Shown one piece after another: positions 5,596 to 7,840 of a stretch of 37,961 nucleotides of DNA. Each line of letters begins with the position of its first letter. The first letter of the stretch is position 1. The notes beneath the pieces are model-generated. The model made no database searches. It was not told where the DNA came from and was given only the letters and a program-made list of their open reading frames with translations. The translations under genes were made by a program, and so were the position numbers. Origin of the DNA: a virus; IMG/VR virus record IMGVR_UViG_3300036770_000744, positions 1-37,961 of that record, one strand, 5' to 3'.

Positions 5596-6495
5596 ATGGC
5601 ACTTTCAGCACACGACATAGAGATTCGGCCTAACCACATCTGGGCAGGCGATGCAGGGCAGATTGCAGCAGGTAAGGCGGGTGAGGTCTATATGCTTAAA
5701 ACAGGCCAGAAAGAGCCTGAAGACCTTAGCGGCAATGAGGCGGTAGAGATGGGCCTTGTTATGCAAGAACCGATTATGAGGGCTGCAGCAGGGCGTTGGG
5801 GACTGGAGTTTAAGGATGCCGACTACCACTTAATCCATCCACGGCATACGTTCTTAGCTAGTCACTTTGACTACATTAGTAGCGACGGTAAGACCTTATA
5901 CGAGGTCAAAAACCTTGGGCACCACCAGCGCAAACACTACGGAGACTCGGGCAGTGAGCAGGTTTCTGATCGCTACCGTGCCCAATGTATGCATGAACTC
6001 ATTGTCCACCAAGTCGAGAACATCGAGCTTATCGTTTTGTTTGGTGGGCAGGAGTTGTGCAGGTTCCCGCAGACCGTCACAGAGTTAGAGCAAGAGGCGC
6101 ATATACGTGCTATGGCTGAGTTCTGGGCGCAAGTGCAGACCAAGAGCTTTAACCCGCAGACAATGGCAGACGTGGTGAAGGATGTTTACCGGGTTGATGA
6201 CGGTAGTTCTATCGTTGCCAATGCCAGCATTGAGACAGCCTGTATCCAGTTGCAGCAGTTAAAGGCCAAGATGAAGGAGTTTGAAGAGGCTGAGGATGGG
6301 CTGAAAGAGTTTATCCAGAGCTGGATGAAGGAAAAGGCCACCGTGACAGCCTATGACGGTTCTATCTTAGCCACATGGAAGACTGCTAAACCATCTAAGC
6401 GTTTTAGTGCAGAGCTTCTAAAATCAGCCATGCCACAGATTTATGAGCAGTTTGTAGTGGAATCACCCGGTTCACGCCGGTTCCTAATCAAATAA
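5596..6495 (+). CDS. YqaJ-family viral recombinase exonuclease
   Basis: The 299-residue product has the PD-(D/E)XK core of YqaJ/lambda-exonuclease-type alkaline nucleases: an N-terminal E-P-I-M-R-A-A-A-G-R-W-G helix near 57-68, the metal-binding D92 in L-A-S-H-F-D-Y, and Y-E-V-K-N with E103 and K105. A coiled segment follows (about 215-240). These enzymes resect 5' strands of double-stranded DNA so that an annealing protein can load. The partner is the next gene, 10 bases downstream. ATG 5596 with GGGGAGG is chosen; the GTG at 5548 lies inside the preceding gene. Confidence 0.85.
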   Translation: MALSAHDIEIRPNHIWAGDAGQIAAGKAGEVYMLKTGQKEPEDLSGNEAVEMGLVMQEPIMRAAAGRWGLEFKDADYHLIHPRHTFLASHFDYISSDGKTLYEVKNLGHHQRKHYGDSGSEQVSDRYRAQCMHELIVHQVENIELIVLFGGQELCRFPQTVTELEQEAHIRAMAEFWAQVQTKSFNPQTMADVVKDVYRVDDGSSIVANASIETACIQLQQLKAKMKEFEEAEDGLKEFIQSWMKEKATVTAYDGSILATWKTAKPSKRFSAELLKSAMPQIYEQFVVESPGSRRFLIK

Positions 6496-6505
6496 GGGGA
6501 ACATT

Positions 6506-7342
6506 ATGACCAATGTAGTCAGCATGAAAGAAGGGGCGATTCTTGACCCCAAAGTGATCGAATCCATTGTGATGAATGGCGATCTAAGCAAGCTACAGCC
6601 AGCACAGAAAGTGGCGTACTACAACTACAGATGCAGCCAAGCAGGGCTAGACCCCGCTGCCAAGCCATTTGATTTGCTCAAACTCAATGGGAAGGAAATC
6701 TTATATGCCAACGCACAATGCACTCAGCAACTGTGTGCTATCCATAAACTTAGCACCCAAGTCACGCACCGAGAAAAGATGGATGACATATACCTTGTCT
6801 CAGTGCGAGTTACAGGCGCTGACGGTAGACTTTCTGAGAACCAAGGGGCAGTGGCAATTGCACACCTCAAAGGGGACGCCCTTGCCAATGCAGTCCTCAA
6901 AGCGACCACGAAAGCGATTAGGCGTGCAGTCCTCGCCCACTGTGGCCTCGGGATGCTTGACGAAACGGAAGCCGAAACAATCCCAAACGCAAGAATGGAA
7001 CCAATGGTTCAAGTTTCAACACAAGCCGCCCCGTCAATTAGTGAAATCCTTGCAAAGCCTGCCGACGGCATTGCTCTGATGGTGCCGGGTACTGATGAAC
7101 CCTATGCTTATTACGAGACGATGGACAAGTGGGTGGATGCTTTCCTAACCATGTTCGACAAGATTGCAGCCAATAAAAAGATGGACGCAGGCACCAAGCT
7201 GTTAAAAATGTCCGACTTTGAGAAGTGCAATACACGCACCATTCACGAACTCGCTAGGAACCATGAAGGCCTATATTCGGTTTTTTCTGGTGGCGTGGGC
7301 AGTGCGAGAGCTTTTGCCAGTGAAGAAGCAAAAAAGCAGTAG
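6506..7342 (+). CDS. RecT-like single-stranded DNA annealing protein
   Basis: The 278-residue product has the conserved core of phage annealing proteins: Y-R-C-S-Q-A-G-L-D-P (about 42-52), G-K-E-I-L-Y-A-N-A-Q-C-T-Q-Q-L and K-A-T-T-K-A-I-R-R-A-V-L-A-H-C-G-L-G-M-L-D-E-T-E (about 132-155). The TKAIRR...GLG.LDE.E block is typical of RecT-like proteins. After about residue 170 a variable C-terminal part follows. It would pair complementary single strands made by the upstream exonuclease. The last codons are GCA AAA AAG CAG TAG, placing a perfect A-AAA-AAG slippery heptamer in frame (7330-7336); see the next entries. AAGGGG precedes the ATG. Confidence 0.75.
   Translation: MTNVVSMKEGAILDPKVIESIVMNGDLSKLQPAQKVAYYNYRCSQAGLDPAAKPFDLLKLNGKEILYANAQCTQQLCAIHKLSTQVTHREKMDDIYLVSVRVTGADGRLSENQGAVAIAHLKGDALANAVLKATTKAIRRAVLAHCGLGMLDETEAETIPNARMEPMVQVSTQAAPSISEILAKPADGIALMVPGTDEPYAYYETMDKWVDAFLTMFDKIAANKKMDAGTKLLKMSDFEKCNTRTIHELARNHEGLYSVFSGGVGSARAFASEEAKKQ
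7330..7336 (+). promoter_or_regulatory. Putative programmed -1 frameshift site A-AAA-AAG
   Basis: The heptamer is in the correct X-XXY-YYZ phase of the annealing-protein frame, followed by CAG and the TAG stop. A -1 slip enters the frame of the HTH domain, which is open from 7324 with no ATG, GTG or TTG until 7393. Possible downstream structure: CAGTCAGAGT (7369-7378) pairs perfectly with ACTCTGACTG (7408-7417), and GCGG-CAC-CCGC is a short hairpin at 7352-7362. The long stem lies farther away than usual. A read error in the A6 run is the main alternative. Confidence 0.5.
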
Positions 7343-7392
7343 AGCCAGTCGGCGGCACCCGCTTCAGTCAGTCAGAGTTAATCCTTCGCTAC

Positions 7393-7575
7393 ATGGATAA
7401 GGGCCACACTCTGACTGCACTGGAAGCCTTGCAGATGATGGGCGTGTTTAGACTGGCGGCACGCATTGATGATTTGCGTAAGAAGGGTCACAACATCGTG
7501 ACAGAGGAAGTCATAGAGGGCGGTAAGACGTTTGCCCGTTATCATTTAGTGAAAGGAGTTGGACATGGCGTATGA
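7393..7575 (+). CDS. Helix-turn-helix domain protein, probably made as a -1 frameshift extension of the annealing protein
   Basis: From ATG 7393 the frame gives 60 residues with a winged-helix-like domain: T-L-T-A-L-E-A-L-Q-M-M-G-V-F-R-L-A-A-R-I-D-D-L-R-K-K-G-H-N-I followed by T-E-E-V...F-A-R-Y-H-L-V. This matches the phage HTH family with the 'LT..EAL...G..RLA.RI.DLRK.G..I' pattern. The first helix of that family, S-Q-S-E-L-I-L-R-Y-M, is encoded just upstream in the same open frame, but no start codon or ribosome binding site precedes it, and ATG 7393 has none either. A -1 shift at 7330-7336 would give a fusion of about 356 residues. Otherwise it is a truncated HTH protein or uses a non-standard start. 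Confidence 0.7.
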   Translation: MDKGHTLTALEALQMMGVFRLAARIDDLRKKGHNIVTEEVIEGGKTFARYHLVKGVGHGV

Positions 7576-7840
7576 CAGACCACCGGGCACAGGTGCCCTA
7601 TTCGGACAGAGCAAACCTGATGGCAGCAAAGGGCCAGACTGGAAGGGTGAGCTGTTGCTTGACCAAGACTATAAGGCAGGCGACGTACTCAAGATGGCAG
7701 GCTGGATTAAGCAGACCGCTAGAGGGCCGCTTATCAGCCTCAAAGAAGACACTTGGAAGCCAGACCCCAACTATCGTCAGAACCAGCAACCAACGCCTTC
7801 TAAGAGCTTTGATGACATTGACGGGGAAGTCCCTTTTTGA
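7565..7840 (+). CDS. Small single-stranded-DNA-binding-like protein with acidic SSB-type C-terminus
   Basis: The 91-residue product contains W-K-G-E-L-L-L (about 27-33), a short beta-rich core and W-I-K-Q-T-A-R-G-P-L-I-S-L, then a flexible tail ending D-D-I-D-G-E-V-P-F. Bacterial SSB proteins end in D-D-D-I-P-F, the tip that recruits replication and repair partners; this end looks like a variant of it. Together with the exonuclease and annealing genes upstream, a role as ssDNA-binding accessory protein is likely but not proven. ATG 7565 has AAAGGAG at good spacing inside the HTH gene; the TTG at 7559 is less likely. Confidence 0.6.
   Translation: MAYDRPPGTGALFGQSKPDGSKGPDWKGELLLDQDYKAGDVLKMAGWIKQTARGPLISLKEDTWKPDPNYRQNQQPTPSKSFDDIDGEVPF

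Follow-up and report, generated by a model that had tools for sequence, protein, structure and literature searches.

How a helix-turn-helix (HTH) domain can be translated when its reading frame opens within the end of another gene, with no start codon ahead of the close of its first helix, is the question raised by a stretch of viral DNA taken from IMG/VR, a virus record of 37,961 bp that is called the window here. All of the features concerned lie on the forward strand, in the order exonuclease gene (5596-6495), annealing-protein gene (6506-7342), HTH frame (to 7575) and SSB-like gene (7565-7840), the start of the last overlapping the end of the HTH frame. The exonuclease gene, whose ATG is preceded by the ribosome binding site GGGGAGGA, encodes a RecE/YqaJ-like partner for the annealing protein (PF09588, E 9.5e-8; phrog_434 RecE-like exonuclease, E 1e-46), and the downstream partner is an SSB-like protein with an acidic EVPF tail and a weak match to phrog_18154, single strand DNA binding protein (E 0.003). 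The gene between them encodes a protein of 278 aa that matches PF04098 Rad52_Rad22 above the profile cutoff (E 8.4e-5). Its AlphaFold model (pLDDT 70.9) has human RAD52 as its best Foldseek match (E 5.7e-5, prob 1.00), with a TM score of only 0.3-0.45 and a model of moderate quality. By the sequence and predicted fold of its N-terminal domain the product is of the Rad52 type, and its predicted annealing activity is supported by the exonuclease gene before it and the SSB-like gene after it.

An earlier note on this DNA proposed that a -1 ribosomal frameshift joins the annealing protein to the HTH, and what it had read directly from the letters holds. The 0-frame gene ends GAA GAA GCA AAA AAG CAG TAG, such that the heptamer A-AAA-AAG (7330-7336) is in exact phase with the annealing frame and one codon ahead of the stop (TAG, 7340-7342). 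The -1 frame is open from 7324, between a TGA at 7321-7323 and its own TGA at 7573-7575; its first transframe codon would be 7336-7338, followed by a linker and a winged HTH (7337-7575). The predicted frameshift product has 277 + 79 = 356 aa, with the junction EEAKK-AVEPVGG. A-AAA-AAG and the related C-CCA-AAG are both highly shift-prone in E. coli (PMC5009743), values that serve as a proxy for those of the phage host and may differ from them. As a bare word AAAAAAG, with 7 occurrences in the window against 12 expected, is not rare, and its count is uninformative; the significance of the heptamer lies in its phase, position and conservation.

The -1 frame translates as AVEPVGGTRFSQSELILRYMDKGHTLTALEALQMMGVFRLAARIDDLRKKGHNIVTEEVIEGGKTFARYHLVKGVGHGV and matches the PF14090 HTH_39 profile (E 1.1e-12) and phrog_4973 (E 1.5e-15). 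Its AlphaFold model (pLDDT 78.5) has an H-E-H-H-E-E topology, and the best match in the PDB is the winged helix of Stf76 (2mlg; TM about 0.67, prob 1.00); when the PDB was searched by sequence, the HTH and RecT profiles returned either no match or spurious matches to designed proteins. This fold, together with the conserved basic residues of the RLAARIDDLRKKGH helix, suggests that the domain binds DNA. As the earlier note stated, no ATG, GTG or TTG occurs in the -1 frame before the ATG at 7393, and that codon has no Shine-Dalgarno (SD) sequence and falls at the end of predicted helix 1 (residues 14-23 of the model, the ATG being residue 22 counted from 7330). Past the overlap, dN/dS among relatives is 0.12-0.34 in 16 of 17 pairs and 0.46 in the remaining one, a pattern of purifying selection on the HTH frame.

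Relatives were collected from five protein-motif scans of viral contigs, a genome scan and phage records, about 350 loci in all. The seeds were nearly all HTH or annealing-protein motifs away from the heptamer, the exception being one of six seeds in a single viral-contig scan (KKAVEPVG), which touched it. In the profile survey all 132 non-redundant annealing/HTH junctions are -1 overlaps, 131 of them with a shifty heptamer in phase (111 C-CCA-AAG, 16 A-AAA-AAG and 4 C-CCA-AAA); none of the 132 is an in-frame fusion, and no separate HTH gene was found downstream of an annealing gene. Canonical heptamers in the overlaps of the relatives are in phase in 131 cases and out of phase in one, and upstream of the overlaps the same genes carry them at 3 of 23,657 in-phase positions. 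When a subset of 81 junctions is clustered at 65% HTH identity, 17 of the 18 clusters have the heptamer, and both heptamer types occur inside one cluster (that of L022). The alignment of homologues that the earlier note had called for thus shows heptamer and phase to be kept while the type varies between A-AAA-AAG and C-CCA-AAG, always as an in-phase X-XXY-YYZ. The sole junction that lacks a canonical heptamer (L148:2488-2510) reads GCC CAA AAG TAA, a weaker sequence in phase with its HTH that is possibly an A-site slip of lower strength or an assembly error. One survey outlier, L007, has a broken annealing frame. At the L022 locus (2498-2977) the HTH frame continues in frame into an SSB-like protein ending DDDDDVPF, and a frameshift there would therefore give an annealing-HTH-SSB triple fusion.

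In RecT relatives without the HTH an SSB-like gene mostly follows at once, and a shift heptamer in phase near the stop is mostly lacking, the exceptions being L218/L245, L233 and two distant ones. The RecT genes of L218 and L245, the latter from a beta-proteobacterial MAG, have an in-phase CCCAAAG and a -1 frame of only about 51 codons with no HTH, perhaps a relic or some other extension. In L227 and L243 (about 2093-2300) RecT has no -1 HTH, and a stand-alone HTH_39 gene with its own ATG lies just upstream of it. Genomes scanned with the HTH alignment gave no match; a second scan, by RecT-type proteins, gave a relative in a beta-proteobacterial MAG that has no HTH. RecT homologues of the cultured phages phiKX1, P8625 and Salinibacter phage 5_14 carry no cassette of C-terminal domain, slip site and HTH, which among the phage records examined is present in the metagenomic MW202825.1 only. 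In another GenBank record, MW202753.1, the RecT-type gene (L267:2501-3304) is unannotated.

Constraint on the slip site is evident at the level of single codons. The codon before CCA AAR encodes any of 12 amino acids (S, N, L, D, H, G, T, P, F, V, Y, A), and its last base is C in all 87 distinct contexts, where codon usage predicts 36.8; these contexts were selected by the heptamer, yet only one of the 132 junctions did not qualify. Counting one event per amino acid, the probability of the invariant C is about 1e-5. The proline codon at the site is CCA in 115 of 115 cases (usage 0.30).

The candidate elements that would stimulate slippage are specific to the family of annealing protein, an upstream SD in RecT-type genes and a long-range downstream stem in Rad52-type genes. 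In the RecT type an SD-like motif lies 9-10 nt upstream, its end 8-11 nt before the heptamer in most of 25 clusters, and over these clusters anti-SD pairing has a sharp peak at -7.9 kcal/mol. The mean best pairing, -8.72, is stronger than in all of 200 synonymous reshuffles (-6.98 +/- 0.45). For -1 frameshifting an SD spacing of 9-14 nt has been described (PMC5009743). In L110 the GGAGG stands in another codon register, encoding Met-Glu-Glu in place of the usual Ala-Gly-Gly, which argues that the SD is not simply a by-product of the peptide. Three RecT-type loci (L167, L175, L217) have an extra hairpin of about 12 bp some 5-8 nt downstream.

In the Rad52-type genes, the window included, the anti-SD pairing analysis found no upstream SD. 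A general scan of 60 nt for 3' structure was weak on average, which led to a test for a longer-range stem. In the window GCCAGTC (7344-7350), 7 nt after the heptamer, pairs with GACTGGC (7451-7457) inside the RLAA codons of the HTH. Across 27 Rad52-type loci the 5' arm of this closing stem begins 5-7 nt after the heptamer and the loop is 92-117 nt long; in 20 unique Rad-type sequences 97% of cells are paired, a level that no other register among 3,779 attains. L130 and L131 pair only partly. The covariation score of the stem is reached by 1 of 500 shuffles and comes from a single compensatory pair, G-C to A-U in the L024 group, with the 3' arm lying within conserved RLAA codons. The 128-nt fold of the window has a predicted energy of -50.2 kcal/mol against -32.5 +/- 4.2 for synonymous-codon shuffles, and six clade members have z values of -2.8 to -4.2 by the same comparison. 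The earlier note had pointed to the pairing of CAGTCAGAGT (7369-7378) with ACTCTGACTG (7408-7417); the pairing itself is borne out as part of a longer predicted hairpin (arms 7363-7378 and 7408-7424), and it lies about 26-32 nt past the slip site. Within the clade, 9 of 11 degenerate-codon positions in the hairpin arms are invariant, compared with 23 of 51 elsewhere, and the hairpin is not preserved in the L011 clade. This 10-bp hairpin is probably an inner branch of the larger fold, and the closing stem is the better candidate stimulator.

Of the other ways in which the HTH might be made, the one that survives best is independent synthesis as a small protein of its own, with coupled translation or reinitiation past the annealing stop that begins at the ATG at 7393 or at a non-AUG codon. 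The close overlap of the frames is as found in coupled genes, and close stand-alone HTH_39 homologues do exist, nearly all of which begin at an ATG of their own in M-[ST]-Q, as a rule 29 residues ahead of RLAAR; the overlapped HTH frames, however, do not have this ATG at its fixed place. The expectation in the earlier note that homologues would share the absence of a start codon proved correct for most of them: 60 of 76 junctions have no ATG, GTG or TTG between the heptamer and helix 1, and 16 have one, mostly TTG. Similarly, HTH homologues with a start of their own, which it had named as grounds for rejecting the frameshift, do occur as stand-alone genes and never as a separate gene downstream of an annealing gene. 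Translation of a separate protein would give no reason for the X-XXY-YYZ heptamer or for a C that never varies ahead of CCA, and the SD of the RecT type is 15-16 nt from the codon that follows the heptamer, itself variable (GTG, GTC, GTT, GCC). Separate translation is accordingly very improbable.

Still less credit can be given to transcriptional slippage on the A6 run, by which messages with an extra A would make the fusion. Runs of A can cause such slippage, about 9 A or T being cited for bacteria (PMC5009743), but that of the window has 6 A only, and most relatives carry CCCAAAG, which has no such run and on which ribosomes of E. coli are highly prone to shift; the spacing of the SD and of the stem, moreover, matches ribosomes and not RNA polymerase. 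That an assembly or sequencing error (a missed seventh A, as the earlier note had allowed) or a recent mutation has disguised a plain fusion gene or a decayed one is the least probable reading of all, for although metagenomic contigs with a homopolymer could mislead for a single sequence, and the annealing frame of L007 has such a break, an error of this kind is ruled out in general by more than 100 non-redundant junctions from many samples, all -1 and some in lineages without an A-run, by the low dN/dS of the HTH frame and by the absence of an in-frame version throughout the survey.

Programmed -1 ribosomal frameshifting that yields a minority annealing-HTH fusion is thus very probably the explanation. 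At the level of sequence it rests on the conserved in-phase slip site, the frame relation, the coding selection on the HTH frame, the stimulators and the absence of another start. Ribosomes on the annealing gene would meet A-AAA-AAG, or C-CCA-AAG in many relatives, and in some passages the two tRNAs on the heptamer would re-pair one base back, a step that the conserved slip site strongly supports. The slip would be aided in the Rad52 type by the branched mRNA structure with its closing stem 7 nt downstream, and in the RecT type by the internal SD 9-10 nt upstream. Ribosomes that do not shift would terminate to give the plain 278-aa annealing protein, and those that do would contribute, as some share of the product set by the efficiency of the shift, the 356-aa fusion with its C-terminal winged HTH.

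The slip site and HTH are accompanied by a third shared part. The annealing protein of the window has a small C-terminal domain (about residues 188-250; 7067-7255) in common with the RecT-type proteins that carry the HTH. The C-terminal domains of the Rad type and RecT type are plainly related (hhalign prob 99.6, E 4e-24), whereas the N-terminal domains are barely alike in sequence (hhalign prob 37), a pattern that suggests a single exchangeable, mobile cassette, made up of C-terminal domain, slip site and HTH and common to Rad52-type and RecT-type annealing proteins. The small C-terminal domain of Redbeta binds lambda exonuclease and potentially SSB (PMC9512822), and Redbeta without it still anneals but has lost recombination (PMC5052646); by analogy the C-terminal domain of the cassette may bind partners in the same way. 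Unshifted RecT-type proteins (e.g. L039, L168, L174) frequently have acidic-P-[IVL]-F ends (SEIPF, SEPVF, NEPIF) that resemble the SSB tip, and these 0-frame tails may arise because the same bases also encode the TQRxxIL of HTH helix 1, or they may have a significance of their own.

A role of the fusion in targeting or regulating a recombinase, as the earlier note suggested, is plausible. Annealing proteins act as rings or filaments of many subunits, and the shift would therefore set a fixed share of subunits with a DNA-binding arm. We tentatively suggest that the fusion enters oligomers of the 278-aa form, and that within a given ring or filament the HTH-bearing subunits, their share set by translation, hold on to double-stranded DNA or to a particular phage site and so tether or position the annealing reaction. 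It is conceivable, with about the same reserve, that the presence of the cassette on different annealing families reflects a phage-wide control of recombinase composition in which the frameshift rate is a dial for stoichiometry, as in dnaX and lambda G/GT. Alternatively, the fusion might serve in autoregulation as a DNA-binding protein, or in contact with a protein partner. If the frameshift is real, the annealing proteins as annotated have an overlooked isoform with one more domain, a matter relevant to the targeting of annealing recombinases. Recombineering relies on annealing proteins as its tools, and a DNA-binding isoform that occurs in nature could be put to a direct test there. Gene callers miss the HTH, and in MW202825.1 (L110:2980-3189) it is annotated from an internal ATG and hence shortened.

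Documented programmed frameshifts in phages are mainly in tail and capsid genes; one conserved among the genes of annealing proteins would add a new functional class to these. The open-access literature searched held no report of frameshifting in annealing genes, nor is it mentioned in GeneTack, PRFect or the studies and surveys of annealing proteins consulted. The HTH-bearing annealing protein, which the earlier note took for a new way to target or regulate a recombinase, has precedents: RecT, Rad52/Sak3/Erf and Sak4 members with a C-terminal DNA-binding HTH in frame, remotely homologous to the Redbeta C-terminal domain and ParD, have been reported and read as domain shuffling (PMC8093625). 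Those, however, are not described as frameshifted, and the HTH of the cassette is a PF14090 domain that lies beyond a distinct C-terminal domain and can be read only through the frameshift, such that its making is what is new.

Parallels with well-studied frameshifts are instructive. E. coli dnaX, the source of tau and gamma, shares the A-AAA-AAG, the SD 9-10 nt upstream seen here in RecT-type relatives and at times a 3' hairpin, and its product likewise belongs to an oligomeric machine of DNA metabolism; the gene and domain are unrelated, and in E. coli the frameshift product is the shorter, while that of the annealing gene is the longer, a reversal also found in a few other bacteria (PMC5009743). 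The -1 frameshift of the lambda G/GT tail chaperone, unlike the present one, concerns a structural assembly factor and not recombination. According to the passage of PMC11963761 that cites it, a programmed ribosomal frameshift controls FseA, the DNA-excision regulator of the ICE of Mesorhizobium japonicum R7A, which as described there is a transcription activator, not a recombinase, in a single element system. In IS3-type elements such as IS911, two partly overlapping ORFs (OrfA/OrfB) are also fused by -1 frameshifting, and the product is also a DNA recombination enzyme. IS elements encode their HTH in the upstream frame and obtain the catalytic part through the shift; in the annealing-HTH fusion, in contrast, the HTH comes last. 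The IS911 frameshift has a three-way junction as its 3' structure (PMC5009743), which the predicted branched fold of the window resembles in outline. The annealing-HTH frameshift, as read from these sequences, is a known decoding mechanism in a new class of gene, with a new domain as its outcome.
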